Below, in pieces: positions 12,490 through 24,605 of a DNA stretch of 64,000 nt (position 1 is its first letter; each line of letters opens with the position of its first letter). Source of the stretch: Bacteroidales bacterium (GTDB taxonomy: Bacteria > Bacteroidota > Bacteroidia > Bacteroidales > UBA1715). Location of the stretch: positions 1 to 64,000 of the forward strand of contig JAITUU010000056.1 in the NCBI GenBank assembly GCA_031286165.1. The letters are read 5' to 3'. The translations under genes and the position numbers were made by a program. Under the pieces are notes generated by a model. It did not search any database. It had not been told where the DNA came from and saw only the letters and a program-made list of their open reading frames with translations.

Positions 12490-14412
12490 TTACACTACGT
12501 GTTTGAGTTCTTTGGTTATGTTTTGTATTGTTTTTTTCTTTTTGGCGAGTTCTGCGGTTATGTGCAGTAATTCTTCGGGCGAAAGCGGATTTTTCAACTG
12601 ATTTGCCAATGCTTTGTATTCGTCTTCCAATCGTTTGCGTTTGTAGGTGGCTATGGTGTCCCACACTACGGTTGAGAGTTTTTGTTCTTCGGTTTCGTAG
12701 GCACTTTGGCGTTTTTTCCAAATTCCGCTCAGGGTCATATCCATTGATTTTTTTACAAAATCTATCGACCACGCCGCACACTGCTGATTGTGGTGATTGT
12801 TGAAATACTGCGAAGCATCGTGTTGTTGTAAATTGTGCTCAAAATATTCGCGAAACATTGCCGGAAATACATCTTGCTGCAAACACATTCCGCCGTCTAT
12901 AATTTCTTTGTGTAAATATTCGTGTACATGAATCGGTTGCGGTAAAATTGGCAAATCCACTGTTTTATCGCCATATACTATGAGTAGTCGCAGGAGTTCT
13001 TTTTCGGTAGAAATAATCCCCATCGTATCGTTTTGCTCGGTAATTTCGGCAATTTGCTCCGGAGTGGGAGTTTGTTGTTGAGGACGGTTATGTGTTTGTA
13101 GTATTGCGGTTTGGGTAATTTTTTGTAACTGTTTGAGCAACACATCTTGCGAAATTTTGAGAATTTTACTACATTCTTCTACATACACCATTTGCGTAAC
13201 CGGGTCGGGAATGAGAGAAATAGTGCGCACCACATCGTTTATCAATTTTGCGCGTTCTATGGGGTCATTTTGCGTTTCACCGGCAAAAAGTTGTGTTTTA
13301 AAAGTTATAAAATCGGTTTTATGCGTTTTTATATAATTATGCAATTCATCTGCACTGTGTTTGCGGGCAAAACTATCGGGGTCATCGCCATCGGGCAATA
13401 GGAGCACCGACACGTTCATTCCTTGTTCCAAAATAATATTGATACCGCGCAGTGCGGCTTTGATGCCTGCCATATCGCCGTCATATACTACCAATACGTT
13501 GTTGGTAAATTTTTGTATCAAGCGAATTTGCTCCACTGTGAGCGAAGTGCCGCTCGATGCAACTACATTGCGCACACCGGCTTGGTGCATGGAAATAACA
13601 TCGGTATAGCCCTCTACCAGAATACATTGGTCTTGTTTTGCTATTTCGGTACGAGCAAAATAAATACCGTAGAGGGTTTTGCTTTTATTGTAAATTTCCG
13701 ATTCGGGAGAATTGAGGTATTTTGCAAATTTTTTATCGGGATTGGCACCCACAATACGTCCACCAAAGCCAATAACCGCGCCGGAAAGGGAGTGAATGGG
13801 AAACATAACCCGTCCGCGAAATCTATCTACATTGCCGTAATCGGCGGTAATGGTCAGTCCGGTTTTTTCCAAATATTCCAATTTGTAGCCGGCTGCGAGT
13901 GCCGCTTGGGTAAAGGCATCTTTTTGTTCTAAGCAGTAACCGAGTTGAAATTGCTTGATAGTTTCTTCGGTAAATCCGCGTTCTTTAAAGTAGGAGAGTG
14001 CTATTGCTTTGCCATCGGCGGTGTTGTGCAAATTGTTTGCAAAATATTCGTTTGCAAAACTATTCACCACCTGCAAACTTTCGCGCAGGTCGAAATGTTG
14101 CTTTTCCTCATCGCTCAAATGAGTTTCTACTACGGCGATGTTGTATTTTTTTGCAATGTATTTGAGTGCATCGGTAAACGACATTTTTTCGTGTTCCATT
14201 ACAAATCCTACGGCATTACCTGCTTTTCCGCAGCCGAAACACTTGTAAATTCCCTTTGCCGGCGACACTACAAACGAAGGCGTTTTTTCGTTGTGAAAAG
14301 GGCAACATCCTTTGTAATTCACTCCGGCTTTTTTGAGCGACATAAAATCACCCAACACTTCGTCTATGCGAGCGCGGTCTATTATTGCCTGTTTACAATC
14401 GGGGTGTATCAT
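12490..14412 (-). CDS. dnaG: DNA primase
   Basis: 640 aa. N-terminal CHC2 zinc finger (CCPFHNEKTPSF...YKCFGCGKAGNA), RNA polymerase core with GRVMFPIHSLSGAVIGFGGRI, TOPRIM acidic motifs LVEGYTDVISMHQAG and VVYDGDMAGIKAALRG, and a helical C-terminal DnaB-binding region. Full length. Synthesises RNA primers at the fork. The 4 bp to the next gene suggest joint transcription. Confidence 0.97.
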   Translation of the reverse strand: MIHPDCKQAIIDRARIDEVLGDFMSLKKAGVNYKGCCPFHNEKTPSFVVSPAKGIYKCFGCGKAGNAVGFVMEHEKMSFTDALKYIAKKYNIAVVETHLSDEEKQHFDLRESLQVVNSFANEYFANNLHNTADGKAIALSYFKERGFTEETIKQFQLGYCLEQKDAFTQAALAAGYKLEYLEKTGLTITADYGNVDRFRGRVMFPIHSLSGAVIGFGGRIVGANPDKKFAKYLNSPESEIYNKSKTLYGIYFARTEIAKQDQCILVEGYTDVISMHQAGVRNVVASSGTSLTVEQIRLIQKFTNNVLVVYDGDMAGIKAALRGINIILEQGMNVSVLLLPDGDDPDSFARKHSADELHNYIKTHKTDFITFKTQLFAGETQNDPIERAKLINDVVRTISLIPDPVTQMVYVEECSKILKISQDVLLKQLQKITQTAILQTHNRPQQQTPTPEQIAEITEQNDTMGIISTEKELLRLLIVYGDKTVDLPILPQPIHVHEYLHKEIIDGGMCLQQDVFPAMFREYFEHNLQQHDASQYFNNHHNQQCAAWSIDFVKKSMDMTLSGIWKKRQSAYETEEQKLSTVVWDTIATYKRKRLEDEYKALANQLKNPLSPEELLHITAELAKKKKTIQNITKELKHVV

Positions 14413-14447
14413 TCAATTACGAATTTTCAATTACAAATTACGAATAG

Positions 14448-14455
14448 CAAAAATA
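14448..14455 (-). promoter_or_regulatory. -7 box TATTTTTG for dnaG
   Basis: Minus strand TATTTTTG, 35 bp before the dnaG ATG. The leader between consists of AATTACGAATT-type repeats. Confidence 0.55.
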
Positions 14456-14468
14456 CGATTTAATTATA

Positions 14469-14527
14469 AACGGCAAAGCCCTCAACGAAGTTAATTGTAA
14501 AACATTTTGTTCAACGAAGTTAATTGC
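14469..14527. repeat. Dispersed repeat with AACGAAGTTAATT, two units
   Basis: AACGGCAAAGCC then CTCAACGAAGTTAATTG (14469-14497), and a second partial unit TTCAACGAAGTTAATTG (14510-14526). A third, nearly identical unit lies at 56096-56125. Non-coding, between dnaG and nth. It may be a mobile REP-like sequence. Confidence 0.6.
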
Positions 14528-14604
14528 AAATTGTAAATTAATTTTTGAACAGCGTGCGAAAAAAATACTATATTCGTTCTCTCTTTTTATAAACCGCAAA
14601 CCCC

Positions 14605-15243
14605 ATGAAACTAACAGAGAAATACGCCGTCTGCATAGCATATTTTCAAAAAATTATGCCCAGCCCGCAGTGTGAACTCAATTTTTCCAACGAATTTGAA
14701 TTACTTGTTGCCGTAATTCTTTCGGCGCAGTGCACAGATAAGCGCGTGAATACCATTACACCTGCGCTGTTTGCGGCTTTGCCCACACCCGAAGCATTTG
14801 CGAATACTACTATTGATGGTATTTATTACTACATTCGCAGTTGTTCCTACCCCAATAATAAAGCAAAATTGCTGCACGCTGCCGCAAAAATGCTATTGGA
14901 GAACTATGGCGGTAAACTGCCGCAGAATATGGAAGAATTACAAAACATACCCGGCGTGGGGCGCAAAACTGCCAACGTACTATGCAGTGTGCTGTGGCAT
15001 CAACCCACTATGGCGGTAGATACGCACGTGTTTCGCGTGGCAAATAGAATAGGGCTGACGAAGGCGAAAAATGTGCTTGAAACCGAAAAACAATTACTCG
15101 CTCACACGCCCAAAGATGCACTCTATTTTATGCACCATTGGTTGATTTTACATGGAAGATACTGCTGTACAGCGCGAAAACCGCACTGCGAACGCTGCGA
15201 ATTGACGCTTGTGTGTGATTATTTTAACAATGTGCCAATATGA
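14605..15243 (+). CDS. nth: Endonuclease III (DNA glycosylase/AP lyase)
   Basis: 212 aa, standard length. VILSAQCTDKRVN, helix-hairpin-helix LQNIPGVGRKTANV with catalytic Lys 121, VDTHVFRVANRIGL with catalytic Asp 139, and the C-terminal 4Fe-4S ligands C-x6-C-x2-C-x5-C (CTARKPHCERCELTLVC). Removes oxidised pyrimidines from DNA in base excision repair. Confidence 0.96.
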   Translation: MKLTEKYAVCIAYFQKIMPSPQCELNFSNEFELLVAVILSAQCTDKRVNTITPALFAALPTPEAFANTTIDGIYYYIRSCSYPNNKAKLLHAAAKMLLENYGGKLPQNMEELQNIPGVGRKTANVLCSVLWHQPTMAVDTHVFRVANRIGLTKAKNVLETEKQLLAHTPKDALYFMHHWLILHGRYCCTARKPHCERCELTLVCDYFNNVPI

Positions 15244-15264
15244 CAATATGCTAATATGGCAATA

Positions 15265-16047
15265 TTAAATATCAAAAAACTTATCTTTTTCAAATTTCAC
15301 AAGGTGCTCGTATTCATGGCGGGGGATACACACAAGTTCGTTATCGCCGATGCCGCGAATTGCTACTTTTTTGGTAATAAACAGAGAGTTATATTCGCTA
15401 TCGAAAGCATTGGTATTGATTCCACGCTGCGAAAAACAGAATGACAGTGAGTTGAGTTTTTGCAATCGTGCCGAAATATTAATGCAGGGACCCACAAAAT
15501 CGTTGCCATTGCCCACGCTGTAAATAAATCCGCGAGCAATGCCGCAACGCAGTTTAAATGGTAGCTGCGCCACTTTTTGTGCTATGCGCGGTAAAAATTC
15601 TTGTTCGTATTTCTGGCAAATGCGGTACATTGCCACTATAACATTGTTGATACTCACATCGCTGAGTGAAGAAACATTCCACAAAAAGAGCAAGCCATCG
15701 CCCAAATATTTAGAAAGAAAGGGTAAATCTGCCCACGTAGAGTAGCCTTCTTCAAATATTTCGCAGGTAAGTTCCTGTTTTATTTCATCGAACATCCATT
15801 TCAAAAACGTATCTAAAAAAAGTGGTACCGCTAAGTGTGGGTCCACTTGTTTGCAAAAAGCGGTAAAGCCTTCCAAATCGAAAATCACACTCAGCGCGTC
15901 TATGGTGGTGGTTTTTGAACTAATAGTGCCCAATCCCAAAATAGATTCGTTGAAATTGTCGAAACTCTGTTTGCGTATCAGTTTTTGTGGGCGATTGTTG
16001 CGCACAATGTCAATAAAATCGGCATTTGTTACAGTAAATTGTGTCAT
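15265..16047 (-). CDS. Class III nucleotidyl cyclase (predicted adenylate cyclase)
   Basis: 260 aa soluble protein with one cyclase homology domain (about residues 50-235). All catalytic positions are visible: metal Asp 57 (FDLEGF), Lys 113 and Asp 117 (KYLGDG), Asp 183 (DFVGPCIN), Asn 190 and Arg 194 (INISARL). Lys/Asp at the base-selecting sites suggest ATP as substrate. The N-terminal 50 residues show no known sensor. No cyclic-nucleotide-binding effector was recognised in the neighbourhood, so the output is unknown; a defence-type (Pycsar-like) pairing is not supported. Monocistronic with its own -7 box. Confidence 0.82.
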   Translation of the reverse strand: MTQFTVTNADFIDIVRNNRPQKLIRKQSFDNFNESILGLGTISSKTTTIDALSVIFDLEGFTAFCKQVDPHLAVPLFLDTFLKWMFDEIKQELTCEIFEEGYSTWADLPFLSKYLGDGLLFLWNVSSLSDVSINNVIVAMYRICQKYEQEFLPRIAQKVAQLPFKLRCGIARGFIYSVGNGNDFVGPCINISARLQKLNSLSFCFSQRGINTNAFDSEYNSLFITKKVAIRGIGDNELVCIPRHEYEHLVKFEKDKFFDI

Positions 16048-16068
16048 AGAGCAGCAAAATTAATACGA

Positions 16069-16076
16069 CAAAAGTA
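16069..16076 (-). promoter_or_regulatory. -7 box TACTTTTG for the cyclase gene
   Basis: Minus strand, 21 bp before the ATG at 16047; gives a very short leader. Confidence 0.55.
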
Positions 16077-16375
16077 CGATTTAATTGGTAATGCTACATG
16101 GTAAATTGTAATTTATTTCTGTTTTCTGTTGTTCGCTGTCTAATATTTCACTACTTTGTACTCATACTGTATTACTTTTTTTAGAGCAGTACACAATTTT
16201 TTGCAATGTTTTTCGTCATATAAAAATGTGTTACAAAACATATTTTTGTAATGCCATGCAGAGTTACAAAAAAAAATGTTAGTTTTGCACATTGAATTGA
16301 TATAATACATTTTACGAAAAAATAGAGATAGTGCCAACAAGCACTGTATGACATACATAATATAGCGTTTCGCTT

Positions 16376-16524
16376 AAATTTTCCCTTTGATACAAAATAC
16401 GACCAATATTTAACAAAAGGGGGAGAGTTGAAGAAGAAACGCCTGCGATAAGCGTAGGCGTTTCTCTTTACTTTCTTTTGTAAGCCTTTGGTCGGGCGAT
16501 GTATCAAAAAGTAAAGGGAAATTA
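16376..16524. repeat. Nested inverted repeat, MITE-like or structured RNA
   Basis: Four nested arm pairs: AATTTTCCC/GGGAAATT (outer, one bulge), TGATACA/TGTATCA (16388-16394 with 16500-16506), CGACCAA/TTGGTCG, and AACAAAAG/CTTTTGT. A central stem AAACGCCTGCG/CGTAGGCGTTT has loop ATAAG. The whole can fold into one long hairpin. It sits in the 555-bp gap 16048-16602 upstream of the WG-repeat gene. The rest of that gap is A+T rich with no gene seen. Confidence 0.6.
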
Positions 16525-16602
16525 GTCTGCGCTTTTTTTGTGTGCTATAGTGAAAGAAAATACAGAAACAATAAAAATTCCTTACATCTAAAAATAATAA
16601 GT

Positions 16603-18204
16603 ATGAAAAAAAGAATCTTACAATCAATGGTTGTGTGCAGTTTAATTGCACTCTGTGTGTCGTGTTCAAGTAATTCATCGCTTGACGTTTCATTAATTCC
16701 CGTACTTTCGGGAGAAAAATGGGGTTATATAGACAAAAAAGGTGAATATGCGATTAATCCGCAATTTGAAGATGCGGGATTTTTTCGTGGCGGATTGGCG
16801 CGAGTGATTGCGCCGGACGGAAAATACGGATACATCAATAAAGACGGAAAATATGAAATTGCGGCGCAGTATAAGCGAGCAACGCATTTTTCACAAGGAC
16901 TTGCCTTTGTGGTTTCCGATGCTTCGTACCCCACGTGTATCAATACATCGGGAGAAACGGTGTTTTCTCTCAAACAAGCACTCGGAGTATATTCTTTTTC
17001 CGAAGGACTTGCGCTCTTTGCCACTGCCGATAAAAAATTTGGATTTGTGGATACCGAAGGACGGGTGGTGATTAATCCGCAATTTGAAGAAGCACTTCCT
17101 TTTTCCGAAGGATTGGCGGCTATTGAGCAAAAAGGGAAATGGGGATTTATCGACAAAACGGGAAAAATCGTTATCAATCCGCAGTTCAATCGCGTTTCGT
17201 GGTTTGTGAATGGTAAAGCAGCCGTATATAATGGTAAACAGTGGGGATTTATAGACAATAAAGGCAGTTATGTAATTAATCCGCAATTCGACCGCGCGGG
17301 AGATTTTAACGAAGGATTTGCGGTGATTTTGCAAGGAAAATTGTATGGTTATATTACCAAAGAAGGAAAAATTGAAATCAACCCGCAGTTTGACAGTGCC
17401 GAAGATTTTTCCAATAGTCTTGCCTGCATACGTCAAGGCGATAGATACGGCTACATTAATACAGAAGGAAAAATAGAAATTAATCCGCAATTTGACCAAG
17501 CATCATCGTTTTTTGGCAATATAGCCTTTGTGGAAAGTGCCGATAAATGGGGAGTGATAGACAGCAAAGGAAAATATGTGGTAAATCCGCAATTTGATAG
17601 AATAAAAATCGAAGTAGAGCAATTTTCGTTTGTGGAAACCGATTACTACGATGCTTCTGCGTTTATTGAGGCATTTTTCAAACGAGCCGAAGATGATTCT
17701 TTTGATGGATTTTCTATTAAATCAACCTTACAAAGCGTTGCCGATAATCCGCGCTATGAAGATGTAAACGCGAGTAGCGAACGCACGGCATATAGTTACG
17801 ATGACCAAGAAATTACCAGCGATATTTCTATTTCAAGCACGTATTTTCGTTTTGCCAATCCTATTTACGAATACCAAACTACCTATGAAAACTTTTGGGG
17901 CTATCGCTACGAAACGGGTTCAAAAAAAGTGTATAAATTTTCTTCGCCGCTCGCAGTGGTGGAATATCACTTCAATTTATCGGGTGATGCACGCAATAGA
18001 GGCGGAGCGGTGGCACACGCGCTGAAAGCGAAAATAGAAAGTCGCTATAAGGTAACAATGGCGGCGGAAGATGGAAAATTCACTGCGCTGCGCAGCGATG
18101 CCATGAGTTTTGCTATTACATATAGTGATTATTCCCTTTCATTCTTTGTGGGTTTCAATAAAGAGGCATTACAAGATGTATTAACAGAACAAAATGACTA
18201 TTAA
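16603..18204 (+). CDS. WG-repeat lipoprotein
   Basis: 533 aa from the ATG at 16603, where a lipoprotein signal begins (MKKRILQSMVVCSLIALCVSC). About nine WG/KWG repeats follow to about residue 345, each like KWGFIDKTGKIVINPQF; the third (YPTCINTSGETVF) is degenerate. WG repeats form a beta-structured, probably ligand-binding surface. The last 190 residues, rich in Tyr, are not recognised. First gene of a run with 18209, 20064 and 20575. No clear TAnnTTTG box was found in front. Confidence 0.88.
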   Translation: MKKRILQSMVVCSLIALCVSCSSNSSLDVSLIPVLSGEKWGYIDKKGEYAINPQFEDAGFFRGGLARVIAPDGKYGYINKDGKYEIAAQYKRATHFSQGLAFVVSDASYPTCINTSGETVFSLKQALGVYSFSEGLALFATADKKFGFVDTEGRVVINPQFEEALPFSEGLAAIEQKGKWGFIDKTGKIVINPQFNRVSWFVNGKAAVYNGKQWGFIDNKGSYVINPQFDRAGDFNEGFAVILQGKLYGYITKEGKIEINPQFDSAEDFSNSLACIRQGDRYGYINTEGKIEINPQFDQASSFFGNIAFVESADKWGVIDSKGKYVVNPQFDRIKIEVEQFSFVETDYYDASAFIEAFFKRAEDDSFDGFSIKSTLQSVADNPRYEDVNASSERTAYSYDDQEITSDISISSTYFRFANPIYEYQTTYENFWGYRYETGSKKVYKFSSPLAVVEYHFNLSGDARNRGGAVAHALKAKIESRYKVTMAAEDGKFTALRSDAMSFAITYSDYSLSFFVGFNKEALQDVLTEQNDY

Positions 18205-18208
18205 ATAT

Positions 18209-20059
18209 ATGATGAGAAAACAGAGTGTAATAGTGCTGTTGTGTGTGATATTGTGTGCCACACACAGCGTGGCACAAGGTATAAAACAACAATCGCAACA
18301 ACACAAACAGCAGCAAACGTGGTTGCAACAAATTGAACAAAAACGCCGAGAAAACGAACTCAAAGAGCAGGCGCGACTGAAACGATTTGAATTGTCGCTC
18401 AATGATTTGTTACTCTTGCAAAAAAAAGGTTTGAGTTATGTTTCTGATTATTTAAGTAATAAAGATTGGACGTTGGAAAAAACACAAGTTTTGGAATTTG
18501 GTTACATTGATGATTTTTTTACCAGTTACGATGCAGTCGTGTGGTCATTTGAAAAAAATAGTTATAACAATAAGGCAAAAGCATGGTTTCATTTATATCA
18601 ATATAGCAAACTCGAAAATGCCATTGTGTATCAAACGAATAAAGACCATTTTAAGAAAATCAGAAGCGAAATTCAAAATTCTTCAACGTTCAAACGTATA
18701 AAAACAGAAACGCAAACAGAGGGTTTGGTAACAATATACAGAGGGAATAATTTGGAAATTCGCATAACTGAATGTACTGCCGATTCTGATACTCCGAATC
18801 ATGATAATATTATGATTTTTAATTTGAAAGAAATCGAAGAACGCCGACAAATAGAAGCAGCACGTAGAGCAAGAGAATATGCCGAGCAACAACGGAGAGA
18901 AAAGGAGGAATATGAAGAACAACTGCGCATAGAAAAAGAAGTAGAAAAACTGCGAGTGCAGGTGCAAAATCATGTGAATCAGGCAAAAGCCTATGAAAAC
19001 CAGAAACGATACAACGAAGCAATAGCGGCATATAATACCGCACTTTTTGTGTATAACGATTCGGAATATGAGTTGGATAATTTCAATGCCAAAGAAATTG
19101 AGAAAAAAATTGCAGAATTGGACCAACTTGTGGTGTTTTTGAAATTGCGGAAAACGAAGGTATATGATTATAAGGAGCAGTATTATACTGAATACGAACG
19201 CATTAATAATAAATTACTGAGCGAAATTAAAGCACTCGTGGCAGGTGAAAAAAATATTACGCCGGCAAGTCTTACCTTTACTTTGAGCATAGATACCGCA
19301 GGAGTAGTAACGCGCAGTGTTACATCTTCGAGTGCCGATACGAAATTGAAAGAACAACTGCAACAAATAACTACCGGCATACAACTCACGCAACCCTATA
19401 TGTATGGCTACACAGTGGCGGCACAAGCGGTATTTTCTTATACCATAAGTAAAGAAAATGCGATTATAAAAGTGAAAAACAAAACTGATGGTTTTTATTC
19501 AAAATCGCCATTGTTCGATACATATTACGATAATTATGGCTTGGATAAAGTACTGCGTTCGGCACCATACGGAAAATTGGTGTTTCAAAGCAGCGCAACT
19601 ACAATTAACGGTAAACATACCGTTGAGAATAACCTTGTGAAATATCACCGCACGGGCGGACCGGCAAATGCGTGGCTTTCGCTGCTTGTGCCCGGACTTG
19701 GAAAACACCGTGTAACCTTTGGCGAGAAAAGCGGCGTGGGCACGGCACTGTGGACATATAGTTTAATAGGCACCGGCGTAGGACTGAAATTGTATTCCAA
19801 TAGTCAATATAGAAAATACATGGCTGCCACCGACCAAAGCGCAATGGATACGCACTATGCCAATGCCAACGCTGCCAATCAGTTTTTTTATGTCTTTGCG
19901 GGAACTGCGGGAATTATATGGATAAGCGATATTTTGTGGGTGTGGCACAGGGGAGCGCAGAACAAAAAAACGCAAAAAGCGTGGAAACAAGCACACTTAG
20001 GATTTTACTACGAACCACAATATAACATTCCCGGATTAGCCTATACCTTTAATTTTTAA
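18209..20059 (+). CDS. Coiled-coil envelope protein with C-terminal membrane segments
   Basis: 616 aa. The start was placed at 18209 because MMRKQSVIVLLCVILCATHSVA is a good signal peptide; the ATG at 18194 overlaps the previous stop and adds only five residues. Charged coiled-coil stretches lie at about 28-65 (many Gln/Arg/Lys) and 210-265 (RRQIEAARRAREYAEQQRR), a TPR-like helix pair at about 260-300, and a C-terminal region with NAWLSLLVPGLGKHRVTFGE and hydrophobic segments (LWTYSLIGTGVGLKLY, FFYVFAGTAGIIWISDILWVW). The end resembles DUF5683-type membrane tails. Function unknown. Confidence 0.72.
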   Translation: MMRKQSVIVLLCVILCATHSVAQGIKQQSQQHKQQQTWLQQIEQKRRENELKEQARLKRFELSLNDLLLLQKKGLSYVSDYLSNKDWTLEKTQVLEFGYIDDFFTSYDAVVWSFEKNSYNNKAKAWFHLYQYSKLENAIVYQTNKDHFKKIRSEIQNSSTFKRIKTETQTEGLVTIYRGNNLEIRITECTADSDTPNHDNIMIFNLKEIEERRQIEAARRAREYAEQQRREKEEYEEQLRIEKEVEKLRVQVQNHVNQAKAYENQKRYNEAIAAYNTALFVYNDSEYELDNFNAKEIEKKIAELDQLVVFLKLRKTKVYDYKEQYYTEYERINNKLLSEIKALVAGEKNITPASLTFTLSIDTAGVVTRSVTSSSADTKLKEQLQQITTGIQLTQPYMYGYTVAAQAVFSYTISKENAIIKVKNKTDGFYSKSPLFDTYYDNYGLDKVLRSAPYGKLVFQSSATTINGKHTVENNLVKYHRTGGPANAWLSLLVPGLGKHRVTFGEKSGVGTALWTYSLIGTGVGLKLYSNSQYRKYMAATDQSAMDTHYANANAANQFFYVFAGTAGIIWISDILWVWHRGAQNKKTQKAWKQAHLGFYYEPQYNIPGLAYTFNF

Positions 20060-20063
20060 CACT

Positions 20064-20561
20064 ATGAAATTTTTGAAATATTTATGTACAGCCGTATTCA
20101 GTGTATTACTGTTTAGCACGTGCGAAGACTATGAGTTTTTGAATTTGAAACGCGACAATCCTTTGGACGCATACTACAAAGCCAACGAACAAGATGGAAT
20201 TGCATTGGTTTTTAATAGTTACAACATGTATGCCGACAACAACAATAATAAAATTGCAAATAAAGGAGAAACCATTAAATTGAGTGTAAGTTTGAAAAAC
20301 ACCGGTTCTCGTACTGCATATAATGTTACAGCCCTATTTTCAACCACAAGTGTGTATGTGAGCGGATTTTCTCCGGCAACATATATTGGTTATGGATACA
20401 GTATATATGCCGGCTACACGGCATGGGAAGAAAGCACGTTTGCGTTTCAATGTACAATTTCCAATTCTACGCCGGCAAATACCGTTATTCCCTTTGCAAT
20501 AGAAATAACCGATAGTGAGGGACATAGGTGGACAGATAGTTTTACAATTACAGTATATTAA
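20064..20561 (+). CDS. Lipoprotein with Ig-like (CARDB-type) domain
   Basis: 165 aa. Lipoprotein signal ending LLFSTC, then a beta-sandwich-like domain with KGETIKLSVSLKNTGSRTAYNVTALFST and TPANTVIPFAIEITDSEGHRWTDSFTITV, the pattern of CARDB/adhesion-type Ig folds. It starts 4 bp after the previous gene. Likely on the periplasmic or outer surface; role unknown. Confidence 0.75.
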   Translation: MKFLKYLCTAVFSVLLFSTCEDYEFLNLKRDNPLDAYYKANEQDGIALVFNSYNMYADNNNNKIANKGETIKLSVSLKNTGSRTAYNVTALFSTTSVYVSGFSPATYIGYGYSIYAGYTAWEESTFAFQCTISNSTPANTVIPFAIEITDSEGHRWTDSFTITVY

Positions 20562-20574
20562 ATAGAGTACAACA

Positions 20575-21678
20575 ATGAAAAAAATCACAATCCTAATTTC
20601 AGCATTGCTCATAGCCATGGGTGCGCACGCGCAGAGCATACAAAGCGAATGGGAATTTCGGCAAGCACAATCACAAAGAGCAGCGCAACTGCAAGCAGAA
20701 AAAGAGAGAAAATTGCAACAAGAGCAACAAGAACAACAACGGGCACGAGAAAAAGCACAACAAAAAGTGCAACTATGTGCACAAAAAGGCGGTGTTATGG
20801 TAAACAATGTATGCTGGGCTACGCGCAATGTAAGTTTACCCGGCACGTTTGCCGCCACTCCCGAAAGTGCAGGCTTGTTTTATCAATGGAATAGAAAAAT
20901 AGGATGGAGTACCACCGAACCTTTGATAAATTCAAACGGTGGATATGAATGGAGTAACAGCACTATGCGGGGTAGTGAGTGGGAAAAAGCAAACGACCCA
21001 AGTCCAGCGGGGTGGCGCGTACCTACATCACATGAAATACAATCTCTCTTGGATTACAATAACGTAACAAGAGAATGGGTAGTGAAAAATGGAGTAACCG
21101 GAAGAAAATTCACTGATAAAACTACCGGAAATTCACTCTTTTTCCCCGCTGCGGGCTATCGCGATGAAGAAGATGGTATTCTCAATGTGATAAAATACTG
21201 CTTTTATTGGAGCACTATTCCGGATGATAGCAACAATGAATTTCTCTCATACGTTCACTATTACGACAATTACGACAGGAACTACGGTTTTACGATTCGT
21301 TCGGTAGCCGATTTGACTTTTGAAGAACAAAACAACGCCAAAGCCGAGCCGGTACGTTTCCCTGCCATAAAAGCAGAATTTCTGGGTGGAGAAAAAGTAC
21401 TCATGAAATGGCTTGCCGAAAATACCAACTATCCGGTAGATGCACTCGATAGAAACGTGACCGGGCTGGTATTGGTAGAATTTGTAGTGCGCGGCGATGG
21501 AAACATAGACAATGTGCGCATTATAAAAAGTGTATATCCAAGTTTAGATAAAGAAGCAATGCGCGTAGTGAAATCTATGGGTAAATGGAAACCCGCCAAA
21601 AACGAAAGCGGCGTAGAAGTGCCTTCTTACTTCACCCTGCCTATTACTTTTCAATTACAGAAAAAGAGTGAGAAATGA
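20575..21678 (+). CDS. FISUMP-domain protein with TonB C-terminal domain
   Basis: 367 aa. Signal peptide (MKKITILISALLIAMGAHAQ), a Gln/Arg/Lys-rich coiled coil (about 20-62), and a Fibrobacter-type major paralogous domain (NVCWATRNV, PSPAGWRVPTSHEIQSLL, FPAAGYRDEEDG, FYWST, YGFTIRSV). The TonB C-terminal fold follows (YPVDALDRNVTGLVLVEFVVRGDGNIDNVRIIKSVYPSLDKEAMRVVKSMGKWKPA). The FISUMP fold is C-lectin-like. Last gene of the four-gene cluster. It is not a DGR target: the GFTIRSV end lacks the template match. Confidence 0.85.
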   Translation: MKKITILISALLIAMGAHAQSIQSEWEFRQAQSQRAAQLQAEKERKLQQEQQEQQRAREKAQQKVQLCAQKGGVMVNNVCWATRNVSLPGTFAATPESAGLFYQWNRKIGWSTTEPLINSNGGYEWSNSTMRGSEWEKANDPSPAGWRVPTSHEIQSLLDYNNVTREWVVKNGVTGRKFTDKTTGNSLFFPAAGYRDEEDGILNVIKYCFYWSTIPDDSNNEFLSYVHYYDNYDRNYGFTIRSVADLTFEEQNNAKAEPVRFPAIKAEFLGGEKVLMKWLAENTNYPVDALDRNVTGLVLVEFVVRGDGNIDNVRIIKSVYPSLDKEAMRVVKSMGKWKPAKNESGVEVPSYFTLPITFQLQKKSEK

Positions 21679-21732
21679 GATGTGAGAACCTTCCCTCGAA
21701 TGTGCTTTGTGGGAGGGCTCTCACTAAGCACT

Positions 21733-22239
21733 TTACCCCTTATTTTCCAATTCCAAACAAAGCAACACTTTTTTGCGCCACAAGCCGCCGGCGTAGCCGG
21801 TCAGTGCGCCGCTGCTGCCCACCACGCGGTGGCAGGGGAGTATGATTGTAATTTTGTTTTTGCCGTTTGCCGCTGCTACCGCTCGCACTGCCTGCGGCGT
21901 TTTCATGAATTGTGCTTGCGCAGAGTAAGTCATGGTTTTTCCGTAGGGAATAGTTTGTAAACTATGCCATACTCGTTTTTGAAATTCGGTACCAATCACA
22001 TCAAGCGGAAGAGTGAAATTTTTGCGCTGCTTTTGGAAATATTCTTGTAATTGCGTGCGCAGCGGTGCAAAGTACGGATTTTCGCCTTCGTGCAAAAAAT
22101 ACTGCCGTGAAAGGTGGCGAAGGTGCAATTCGTGGTGGCTACTATCGGTAAAATCGAGCATACACAGTCCTTTTTCGCTTGCGGCGGCGAGCATGGTGCC
22201 AAGTGGTGTATGTATGTGGGTGTAAGTAAGTATAGGCAT
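21733..22239 (-). CDS. ogt: Methylated-DNA--protein-cysteine methyltransferase
   Basis: 168 aa from MPILTYTHIHTPLGTM. GTEFQKRVWHSLQTIPYGKTMTY, NKITIILPCHRVVGSSGALTGYAGG with the acceptor Cys in PCHRV. Repairs O6-alkylguanine by transferring the alkyl group to itself. The start at 22239 rather than 22272 was chosen because the family begins near the MLAAAS strand and the upstream residues are low complexity. No AdaA-type N-terminal domain. Confidence 0.95.
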   Translation of the reverse strand: MPILTYTHIHTPLGTMLAAASEKGLCMLDFTDSSHHELHLRHLSRQYFLHEGENPYFAPLRTQLQEYFQKQRKNFTLPLDVIGTEFQKRVWHSLQTIPYGKTMTYSAQAQFMKTPQAVRAVAAANGKNKITIILPCHRVVGSSGALTGYAGGLWRKKVLLCLELENKG

Positions 22240-22327
22240 GGAGTAAAAGTAGCAATATTTTTTAAGAGACAACGTTTATTTTACGATTGAATTGCACTAC
22301 GGCGTGTGTGTAATCGAAACTTTTTTG

Positions 22328-22335
22328 TATTTTTG
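22328..22335 (+). promoter_or_regulatory. -7 box TATTTTTG for the PorE-like gene
   Basis: Lies 44 bp before the ATG at 22380 and overlaps the upstream part of the longer frame, which supports the later start. Confidence 0.6.
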
Positions 22336-22379
22336 TGCATATTCTTTTACAATCAACAAAACTCCTAATACGTACCGCA

Positions 22380-24302
22380 ATGAAAAAACTCTGTTTTCTA
22401 TTCTGTATGCTCTTTTTTTATGCGAATGGCTATGCGCAAATCAATCAAGTGTATTCTTCGCAAAATCGCAAGGCAATAGCCAACTACGAAGAGGGCTTGC
22501 GCAACTATCAACTGCGGGATTTTGCCAAGGCACAGCAAAATTTACAAGATGCCATAAAAATAGACCCGGCGTTTACCGAAGCCTACTATTTACTCGCCGG
22601 CGTGTATGCACAAAAAAAAGACAGCGATAAAATGATAGAAACCCTGCAACTTGCCGTGCAAAGCAGTCCGGGCGACCCTATGCCGTATTTCAAACTTGCT
22701 ATGGAATTGATGGATTTGGGCAGATACAGCGAAGCATTGCAAAATTTTAATAAAATTCAGCCGAAGGACAAACCGCTGTTTTCCCCCAAAGAGCAGGAGC
22801 AAATTGCCTATGGCAAAAAACAAGCCGCCGATGCCATTCGTATTATGAAATCACCCATTCCGTTTTCACCGGTGAATATGGGTGCTGCTATCAATACGCA
22901 GTACGATGATTATCACCCGGCTATTACCGTTGATGATAATTTATTCATTTTCACCTCGAATATTCCGGTGAATGCCAAAATGATGCAGGAAGATATTTTT
23001 TATTCCATGCGCTACGATACCGGTGAATGGTCTTCGCGCAGAGTGTTTCCTGCACCCATAACTACGCACAATAACGAAGGCGCATCGTCGATTTCTGCCG
23101 ATGGACGTACTATGGTATTTACCATGTGCAACGCGCCGGGAGGTCTTGGTTCCTGCGATATTTACATAAGCTACTACGCGCTGGGGCAGTGGACTATGCC
23201 GCGCAATGTGGGTGCGCCGGTGAATACCAAATATTGGGATTCGCAGCCGAGCCTTTCGGCAGACGGGCGCACGCTCTATTTTGTGAGTAATCGTCCCGGT
23301 GGAAAGGGCAAAAAAGATATTTGGGTGAGCCACAATATTGCCGAAAATCAGTGGTCGGAACCGCAAAACTTGGGTGCAAGCATCAATACAGCCAACGATG
23401 AAGAGGCTCCGTTTATTCATGCCGATGGCAAAACCTTGTTCTTTTCTTCGGACGGACACTTGGGGCTGGGCAAAAAAGATATTATGATAACGCAGCGCAA
23501 TGCCGATGGTACGTGGAAAACGCCCGTAAATGCAGGCTATCCACTCAATAGTAAAGACGACGAAGGACTGCTCATAGTGAATGCACAGGGTACGAAAGGA
23601 TATTTTGCCTCAAATCGCGAAGGCGGCATGGGCGGTTTAGATGTCTATGAATTTGCTATCAGTCAGGGAATGTTTGCCATTGTGCCTTCACCGGTAACGT
23701 ATGTAACAGGGGTGGTGTTCAACGCCAAAGAACCGGCGAAACGCTTGCCGGCACAGGTTGATTTGCATGATGTGGCAACGAACGAATTGCTCTTTTCCTC
23801 GAATGCCGACCACAACGGAATTTTTATAGTTCCTTTTGAAGAAGACCGCAATTATGCTCTCACGGTGAATTTTTCCGGTTATTTGTTCTATTCGGCGCAG
23901 GTGAATTTAACTACCAATAGAGCACAAATAAAAGTACCGCTACAACCAATAGAGGTGGGGAGTGCTGTGGTGCTCAATAATGTATTTTTCGATACCGACA
24001 GTTACGAACTCAAACCCGAATCGCAAGCCGAATTGTTTACCATTATAGATTTTATGAAGGCAAATCCTTCACTCAGTTTTGAAATTGGCGGACACACCGA
24101 CAATACCGGTTTGAAACAAAATAACAGTACGCTTTCCAACAATCGCGCAAAAGCGGTGTATAATTTCTTGGTAGAACACGGAATAGCAGCCACGCGCCTT
24201 ACGTATAAAGGTTACGCCGATACAAGACCCGTTGCCCCCAACGACAGCGATGAAAATAAGGCGAAAAACCGCCGCACGGAGTTGAAAATTACGAAAAAAT
24301 AA
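22380..24302 (+). CDS. TPR / PD40 propeller / OmpA protein (PorE-like)
   Basis: 640 aa. Signal peptide (KKLCFLFCMLFFYANGYAQ), TPR helices (30-140), WD40-like PD40 propeller (165-440; repeated SADGRTLYFVSNRPGGKG, HADGKTLFFSSDGHLGLGKKDI), a carboxypeptidase regulatory-like domain (about 440-520), and OmpA C-terminal peptidoglycan-binding domain (VFFDTDSYELKPES, GGHTDNTG, NNRAKAVYNFLVEHGI, NRRTELKI). This order is that of PorE, which ties the type IX secretion system to the cell wall. Unlike PorE there is no lipobox Cys, and no other T9SS gene is near, so a general envelope anchor is also possible. Confidence 0.85.
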   Translation: MKKLCFLFCMLFFYANGYAQINQVYSSQNRKAIANYEEGLRNYQLRDFAKAQQNLQDAIKIDPAFTEAYYLLAGVYAQKKDSDKMIETLQLAVQSSPGDPMPYFKLAMELMDLGRYSEALQNFNKIQPKDKPLFSPKEQEQIAYGKKQAADAIRIMKSPIPFSPVNMGAAINTQYDDYHPAITVDDNLFIFTSNIPVNAKMMQEDIFYSMRYDTGEWSSRRVFPAPITTHNNEGASSISADGRTMVFTMCNAPGGLGSCDIYISYYALGQWTMPRNVGAPVNTKYWDSQPSLSADGRTLYFVSNRPGGKGKKDIWVSHNIAENQWSEPQNLGASINTANDEEAPFIHADGKTLFFSSDGHLGLGKKDIMITQRNADGTWKTPVNAGYPLNSKDDEGLLIVNAQGTKGYFASNREGGMGGLDVYEFAISQGMFAIVPSPVTYVTGVVFNAKEPAKRLPAQVDLHDVATNELLFSSNADHNGIFIVPFEEDRNYALTVNFSGYLFYSAQVNLTTNRAQIKVPLQPIEVGSAVVLNNVFFDTDSYELKPESQAELFTIIDFMKANPSLSFEIGGHTDNTGLKQNNSTLSNNRAKAVYNFLVEHGIAATRLTYKGYADTRPVAPNDSDENKAKNRRTELKITKK

Positions 24303-24392
24303 GTCAAAATGTCAATAAGTCAATATGCTAATGAGCCAATAAAACATTGTAAATACCGTACTATCAATGAATAGCGAAAAATTGTATAAAAT

Positions 24393-24424
24393 AATTCGTA
24401 ATTCGTAATTCGTAATTCGTAATT
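24393..24424. repeat. Tandem heptamer AATTCGT, about 4.5 copies
   Basis: Exact tandem copies of AATTCGT directly before the tRNA-Leu promoter. Related AATTACGAATT-like runs occur in several other gaps of the window. Confidence 0.8.
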
Positions 24425-24429
24425 AATAG

Positions 24430-24437
24430 TATATTTG
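24430..24437 (+). promoter_or_regulatory. -7 box TATATTTG for tRNA-Leu
   Basis: A perfect TAnnTTTG box 12 bp before the mature tRNA 5' end. Confidence 0.7.
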
Positions 24438-24449
24438 CACCGCAAAAAA

Positions 24450-24533
24450 GCCCAAGTGTTGAAATTGGTAGACAAGCATGGTTGAGGGCCATGTGCTCAT
24501 TAGGGCGTGCAAGTTCAAATCTTGTCTTGGGCA
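24450..24533 (+). tRNA. tRNA-Leu (anticodon GAG)
   Basis: 84 nt class II tRNA. Acceptor stem GCCCAAG/CTTGGGC with discriminator A. D arm includes AAATTGGTAGACAA. Anticodon stem CATGG/CCATG with loop TTGAGGG (GAG). A long variable arm follows, and the T loop is in AAGTTCAAATCTT. CCA is not encoded (CAA follows), as usual in this phylum. Confidence 0.95.
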
Positions 24534-24541
24534 CAATTTCA

Positions 24542-24578
24542 AAAAAACGCTGTAAATCACAATTTTGCAGCGTTTTTT
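24542..24578 (+). terminator. Intrinsic terminator after tRNA-Leu
   Basis: AAAAAACGCTG / CAGCGTTTTTT, an 11-bp perfect stem with a 15-nt loop, then ATTTTTTAT. Lies 8 bp after the tRNA. Confidence 0.85.
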
Positions 24579-24605
24579 ATTTTTTATCAAACACATACGT
24601 TTCTC

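Follow-up and report, generated by a model that had tools for sequence, protein, structure and literature searches.

The window, the whole stretch of 64,000 nucleotides analysed here, makes up most of contig C35 of a draft genome of 2.5 Mb that is 98.7% complete. It contains four close-packed genes on one strand (Table 1), whose products are denoted P1 to P4. Genes 1 and 2 overlap by 11 nt, and gaps of 4 nt and 13 nt separate gene 2 from gene 3 and gene 3 from gene 4. Coordinates, spacing and Pfam scans bear out the sequence-only reading, which had noted four adjacent reading frames with WG, coiled-coil, Ig-like and FISUMP-TonB domains.

Table 1. Genes, protein segments and non-coding features at the locus (window positions)
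Feature	Position	Strand	Size or content	Basis or remark
Non-coding segment upstream of gene 1	16191-16560	+	370 bp	has a second genomic copy
Gene 1 (P1)	16603-18204	+	533 aa, counted from ATG	ORF
Gene 2 (P2)	18194-20059	+	621 aa	ORF
P2 residues 327-423	19172-19462	+	possible TonB/TolA-CTD-like fold	weak structural match, without profile support
P2 residues 484-621	19643-20056	+	C-terminal module	tether lipoprotein is its gene neighbour
Gene 3 (P3)	20064-20561	+	165 aa; small lipoprotein, one Ig-like head	ORF
P3 residues 20-35	20121-20168	+	lipid Cys and tether, CEDYEFLNLKRDNPLD	alignment of 14 sequences
Gene 4 (P4)	20575-21678	+	367 aa; FISUMP-type/TonB C-terminal domain chimaera	ORF
Captured tonB segment in gene 4	21332-21665	+	334 bp	92% identical, ungapped, to the tonB 3' end (G000:C5)

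The segment upstream of gene 1 contains a 13-pair hairpin (16435-16465). Its second copy, 82% identical, lies upstream of another gene of the same genome. The possibility of a multi-copy repeat was rejected, as 503,202 bases of this genome, a sum in which about 12 kb counts double, contain two copies. An Rfam scan of positions 14400-24600 gave no match. Contamination by a foreign contig is unlikely, as both flanking genes have close homologues (77-81%) in genus-mates; there the two homologues sit on different contigs. The gene at 22380-24299, past ogt, encodes TPR, PD40 and OmpA domains, the same kinds as in PorE.

P1 contains eight stretches of WG repeats (PF14903, E 5.4e-81, 266.6 bits), a lipobox-like Cys21, judged by eye, and a conserved C-terminal alpha/beta domain at residues 345-533. 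The predicted structure (mean pLDDT 89) shows a propeller, followed by this alpha/beta domain at the C-terminus. The solved structures that match the model best are propellers (VIA Z 17.8 to eIF3b/eIF2A). BamB is matched by Foldseek at E 2e-10, yet with a TM-score of about 0.3 and an rmsd of about 10. The propeller is a common fold, and such matches of a predicted model indicate no function.

P2 consists of a signal peptide, a long coiled coil, an N-terminal domain, TPR-like helices, a C-terminal hydrophobic hairpin and a terminal strand. The two hydrophobic segments of the hairpin score 1.0-1.65 and 1.4-2.2. The last residue is phenylalanine in all 14 aligned P2-type proteins, which we take to resemble an outer-membrane strand signal. 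Pfam matches to TPRs are below the threshold, and long helices are predicted. In the model (pLDDT 81, pTM 0.43), long helices are combined with a domain rich in strands and with a helical hairpin at the C-terminus; its Foldseek search gave no match as good as E 0.001. By eye, the signal peptide fits the rule of glutamine after the cleavage site in Bacteroidetes, as given in PMC5837995.

Residues 327-423 of P2 weakly resemble TonB C-terminal domains (CTDs) in structure: 6i97 is matched with a Foldseek probability of 0.84 and E 0.57, and 6sly with VIA Z 5.6 and rmsd 4.0 over 90 aligned residues. However, in two comparisons with the TonB_C profile, run with shuffled controls, this region scored no better than shuffles, and a TonB-like domain in P2 is retained only as part of the Tol-Pal-like alternative below. 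In one profile comparison the P2 stretch 130-210 outscored residues 327-423 against TonB_C, which was taken as noise. Membership of the C-terminal module in DUF5683 (PF18935) was also rejected: the matches of the module in relatives are weak (E 0.06-0.09), only two of the 14 members of the module alignment have one (best E 0.088, below the cut-off), and P2 itself has none at E 1.

The only Pfam matches of P3 are weak and of the Ig type (E 0.013 and 0.024, below the cut-off). No OmpA-type peptidoglycan-binding domain was found by Pfam scans of P3 and P1. The best conserved part of P3-type lipoproteins is the N-terminal tether, C..LKRDNPLD, and residues C20, L28, N32, L34 and also K78 are invariant in 14 such proteins. 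The head varies. It may consist of a single Ig-like unit, of several such repeats (as many as four matches, in locus L149) or of a FISUMP domain (L153, Fib_succ_major E 1.7e-29); the lipoprotein of L148 is FISUMP-like by eye, yet has no Pfam match.

The tether and the C-terminal module of P2 occur side by side. The tether was expressed as a search pattern once the sequences had been inspected. This pattern was found in 36 rows (redundant) among 874 ORFs, and 36 of 36 adjoin a match to the module; the loci were mostly fetched through P2, so this figure tells how specific the pairing is among neighbours, not how often it occurs genome-wide. A tether lipoprotein stands beside 15 of the 18 strong module matches (E at most 6e-25; the profile's own alignment included the majority of these) and beside two of the 12 weaker ones, some of which have their neighbours cut off. 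One of the 15 strong pairs is visible only in the longer locus L132, and the module match next to the tether in L151 is a tblastn stretch. Of the 15 strong pairs, 11 have 4 nt between the P2 and P3 genes, and four have 1-3 nt.

The genes for P1, P2 and P3 are adjacent on the same strand in nine loci, namely the window, L131 (genome G105) and L140-L146. A scan of named genomes yielded 17 loci from Bacteroidales, Prevotellaceae, Dysgonamonadaceae, Bacteroidetes or similar MAGs. Seven of them (L140-L146) contain all three genes; six (L147, L148, L149, L151, L152, L153) contain P2 or its C-terminal module with P3 and no visible P1; and four (L150, L154, L155, L156) have no P3, L150 among them having P2. 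P1 is broken into two frames in L145, and P2 of L144 has no N-terminal domain. Locus L148 starts within P2, and the same genome (G010) has P1 at the end of another contig. Across the cassette loci, identity to the window copies is 45-63% for P1 and 32-42% for P2.

A scan of genomes in which P2 was the sole query found no relatives. Among 60 genomes, the present one and 59 relatives, the P2 matches outside the own genome are partial, G010 having both halves on two contigs, each of which ends within the gene. When 393 genomes of the order, this one included, were searched with a profile, some P2 match came up in at least 12 and both ends of P2 in at least four (G000, which is the genome of the window, G105, G196 and G372); three candidates were scored per genome, which makes these counts lower bounds. 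L152 and L153 were both part of the alignment, so that their P2 scores follow by construction, and their N-terminal scores were not used.

Genes 1-3 thus keep their order, strand and spacing in distant genomes, so the cluster is real beyond chance. Their synteny is well supported, and we read them as a conserved, sporadically distributed envelope operon of uncultured Bacteroidota. The earlier suggestion that envelope proteins of undescribed function are encoded here in an operon-like arrangement stands for these three genes, in the window and eight other loci. Adjacency in relatives, set beforehand as the test of the four-gene cluster, failed for gene 4: no P4 match lies downstream of P3 in any of the six other cassettes with downstream sequence. 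In two of the six this sequence is short, at 0.5 and 0.8 kb; L131 and L141 end within P3 and cannot show a downstream gene. That gene 4 belongs to the machine which the sequence-only reading had assembled from all four genes is therefore not supported. By comparison of one genome per species, it is a lineage-specific addition beside genes 1-3.

We suggest that genes 1-3 encode a periplasm-spanning tether or display complex. P2 would be exported, with its coiled-coil and TPR part spanning the periplasm and its C-terminal hairpin in a membrane. P3 would be lipidated, dock on P2 via the LKRDNPLD tether and present an Ig-like or FISUMP head. The propeller lipoprotein P1 would be the third subunit.

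Two more specific functions may be considered. The complex could mediate adhesion or display at fibre or host surfaces, its FISUMP and Ig heads being the binders. The variation of the heads agrees with this, as do the rumen-type or yak-reticulum origin of two relatives (RUG13712, RGIG9988) and the isolate codes of other relatives, which in our reading look gut-derived. However, no carbohydrate-binding family was seen in the Pfam scans of the four window proteins, and we regard such a function as possible, on a tentative footing.

Alternatively, genes 1-3 could be an outer-membrane tether of the Tol-Pal kind, in a phylum with no recognisable tol-pal. According to PMC12204202, tol-pal loci are not identifiable in Bacteroidetes, further tether systems are expected, and PorE was proposed as a tether there in 2025. 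The P1 propeller would be TolB-like, the coiled coil and TPRs of P2 CpoB-like, residues 327-423 of P2 the counterpart of a TolA/TonB CTD, and the outer-membrane lipoprotein the fourth part. This is suggestive only. The structural match of the P2 region is weak, and the region is not distinguished from shuffles by the TonB_C profile, Z below 8 may reflect a common arrangement, none of the Foldseek matches of P2 reaches E 0.001, and P3 has no OmpA/Pal domain. The sporadic spread, with both P2 ends in at least four of 393 genomes of the order, is also ill-suited to a housekeeping role. We consider this assignment quite unlikely.

Gene 4 has a different composition. The TonB_C domain of P4 is clear (PF03544, E 3.1e-16; 60 bits, cut-off 24.6), and matches to Fib_succ_major (27.3 bits against 33.9) and Lcl_C are below the thresholds. 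Residues 1-245 are 45-51% identical to a FISUMP paralogue elsewhere in the genome (L107), which itself exceeds the Fib_succ_major cut-off with 45.6 bits. Residues 251-365 share 93% identity with the end of the TonB encoded by this genome (95% when the CTDs are compared), and the DNA match ends abruptly at either side. The donor tonB adjoins a MotA_ExbB gene and two ExbD genes on another contig. An assembly artefact was rejected, because 28 of 333 nt in the tail are not those of tonB and the flanking sequence is different too. P4 is the sister of the own tonB (100/97), whose branch has zero length, in both TonB_C trees computed, one of 43 domains and one of 22; the bootstrap of the larger tree, which omits G366:C85 and several G385 matches, had not settled, and the smaller one omits two diverged matches (C68, C5) of the genus-mate G002 and the short ones of G001. 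It is well supported by these comparisons that P4 is a secreted FISUMP-type protein fused in frame to a copy of the end of its host's own tonB.

The tail seems to have been kept under constraint. Over 111 codons, P4 and tonB have 28 nucleotide differences and five amino acid differences, with dN 0.026-0.034 and dS 0.32-0.35 by three methods (dN/dS about 0.1). About 19 amino acid changes would be expected under neutrality, and none of 5000 simulations was as conservative, although purifying selection on the tail is overstated if the silent changes fell mostly on the tonB branch. Residue 270 of P4 is leucine; proline is found here in the own tonB and seven other TonB_C sequences of the genus that were compared, and the TonB function of P4 may therefore be altered.

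The only strongly hydrophobic segment of P4 is its signal peptide (1.77), and after residue 40 the score is at most 1.05; in the own TonB, a segment at residues 42-60 scores 2.81. With a signal peptide and no further strongly hydrophobic segment, P4 most probably resides as a soluble protein in the periplasm. Like that of P2, its signal peptide fits, by eye, the rule of glutamine after cleavage. Periplasmic TonB domain reportedly inhibits transport by FecA and FhuA in E. coli, in work by Howard et al. of 2001. Ten plug-domain matches, nine over the cut-off, were found in the present genome and are possible targets of P4. The TonB CTD binds the TonB box of a transporter via an interprotein beta sheet (PMC11658791). 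We infer, as the favoured role of P4, that it competes with TonB or docks like TonB at transporters. Its TonB domain would bind the same TonB boxes as real TonB; P4 would brake transport through competition, or park its FISUMP domain beneath the transporters, and would by itself transmit no force.

Other genomes point to recurrence of such events. Among the 393 genomes of the order, including the present one, at least two further single-frame ORFs combine a FISUMP-like part with TonB_C (in G385 and G366); about five candidates were scored per genome, and the counts are lower bounds. In both, TonB_C is confirmed by Pfam, and the other part, with only sub-threshold Lcl_C matches, is 26-27% identical to the N-terminal part of P4. 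The G385 fusion groups with TonB_C of its own genome (99/86 in the 43-domain tree and 92/95 in the 22-domain tree), as does, in a weaker case, the G366 fusion (87/69 and 86/88).

The genus-mate G002, listed with 6% contamination, has an exbBD-linked tonB, found in a later scan after a first one in which 33 of 78 candidates were scored, and five further TonB-tailed ORFs that were compared. The identity of their CTDs to the one encoded by the G002 tonB is 82, 75, 69, 55 and 51%. In the tree, the most similar of the five is sister to that tonB (96/90), and the next in identity groups with this pair (92/85); the last two, with the lowest identities, are taken to be uninformative on capture from it. 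One of the TonB-tailed ORFs carries DKNYY repeats. The C145 tail has an internal hydrophobic segment and may be anchored, so not every tail in the genus need be soluble. The tonB CTDs of the present genome and G002 are only 57% identical, and tails that closely match their own tonB would therefore reflect fresh capture or gene conversion. Capture of the own tonB tail thus seems to recur.

One could go further and regard the own TonB CTD as a reusable docking tag, acquired repeatedly to give mostly soluble decoy TonBs, with genes 1-3 an independent complex. The decoys would occupy TonB-dependent transporters and tune or exploit them; gene 4, at least one and perhaps several ORFs of G002, and the fusions in G385 and G366 would be the cases. 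We put this forward as a possibility, with some doubt.

At the other extreme, the tail of P4 could be neutral debris, or its similarity could be maintained by gene conversion with tonB. The segment upstream of gene 1 is likewise a duplicated piece, and P4 has lost an otherwise fixed proline. However, the frame is open, the amino acid changes are far fewer than the neutral expectation, and similar fusions arose in other lineages, which makes this explanation unlikely. Finally, the earlier proposal that gene 4 encodes a force transducer working with genes 1-3 is very improbable in spite of the intact TonB_C and the common location, because P4 lacks the N-terminal membrane anchor with which TonB engages ExbB/ExbD, no ExbB/ExbD match was found among the nearest neighbours of gene 4 that were scanned (P1-P3, the ogt gene between gene 4 and 22380-24299, that gene itself, and 15268-16047), and gene 4 is missing from the six other judged cassettes.

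Taken together, our main reading is that genes 1-3 form an undescribed tether or display operon, and that gene 4 is a decoy or docking chimaera with a captured tonB end; we give it a probability of roughly 0.45. None of the papers covered by full-text search mentions FISUMP, or FISUMP together with TonB; words from the full family name (Fibrobacter succinogenes major, paralogous) do occur there. Searches on DUF5683 returned unrelated work only, and those on "WG repeat" work that looks unrelated, judged by title. As far as the literature was searched, genes 1-3 are an undescribed operon of known domain types. Fusions of TonB_C to other domains are already known, and a MORN_2 and TonB_C fusion is present in this same genome; gene 4 is, within the same searched literature, a hitherto undescribed form of such a fusion. 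If the main reading is true, TonB-dependent import in Bacteroidota has an unrecognised layer, in which secreted proteins bearing a copy of the TonB hook that matches their host's own are able to compete for the transporters of that host. Genes 1-3, for their part, would offer a well-delimited envelope complex that can be put to the test and that has a short lipoprotein tether; the phylum's equivalent of Tol-Pal is still sought.

The individual parts can be compared with known systems. P1 resembles WG-repeat proteins (PF14903) in its eight repeat stretches and its propeller model, but beyond these it has a conserved domain at the C-terminus, and its operon partners recur. In relatives, the P2 module weakly resembles DUF5683 (PF18935), but it is fused to coiled-coil/TPR or PEGA parts. 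The N-terminal two thirds of P4 are similar to FISUMP proteins (PF09603/TIGR02145), of which the genome contains paralogues, whereas the TonB tail sets P4 apart. Compared with TonB energy transducers, P4 has a CTD (PF03544) 95% identical to that of the own TonB, but no transmembrane anchor and no adjacent exbBD, and a FISUMP-type domain instead. Genes 1-3 resemble PorE and Tol-Pal, as described in PMC12204202, in a parts list of propeller, TPR/coiled coil and lipoprotein; they differ in being separate genes, in which no peptidoglycan-binding domain was found.

The 370-bp non-coding segment (see table) was found in two copies in approximately 0.5 Mb of sequence searched. The copy on contig C28 of the window's own genome lies upstream of a gene encoding 288 amino acids, which is followed on the same strand by a gene for a FISUMP-type protein. 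On the other side of the cluster, the ogt gene stands between it and the gene of a PorE-like protein, whose homologues in the genus-mates are 79-81% identical.

Coordinates of the duplicated segment and the PorE-like neighbour
Feature	Position	Description
Non-coding segment, 370 bp	window 16191-16560	13-pair hairpin; immediately 5' of gene 1
Second copy	L220:19651-19284 (G000:C28)	82% identical, orientation unchanged
PorE-like protein	window 22380-24299	TPR, PD40 propeller and OmpA domains

Two relatives of the WG-repeat propeller (gene 1) share its C-terminal domain (L101:6531-8597, L102:7287-9347). Judged by eye, the next protein in both loci resembles the lectin fold of the sulfatase-modifying-factor type. 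The N-terminal domain of the coiled-coil/TPR membrane protein (gene 2) occurs without the remaining part in other ORFs (L137:7151-7648, L138:5148-7491, L139:6324-8690), and locus L138 contains two adjoining genes, each with this domain. A C-terminal module of the gene 2 type is fused with five PEGA stretches in L152:6306-8414; here, too, a tether lipoprotein (gene 3 type) is encoded downstream.

TonB_C tails were observed in five ORFs of the genus-mate G002 (L202, L203, L099, L204, L205). Their N-terminal parts differ, with DKNYY repeats in one of the five. The genome's own tonB is sister to the tail of L202. The FISUMP-like/TonB_C fusion in G385, a genome of the same order, is surrounded by ORFs that resemble, by eye, Ser/Thr kinases, a phosphatase of the PP2C type and a caspase-like protein (L112:2671-13511).
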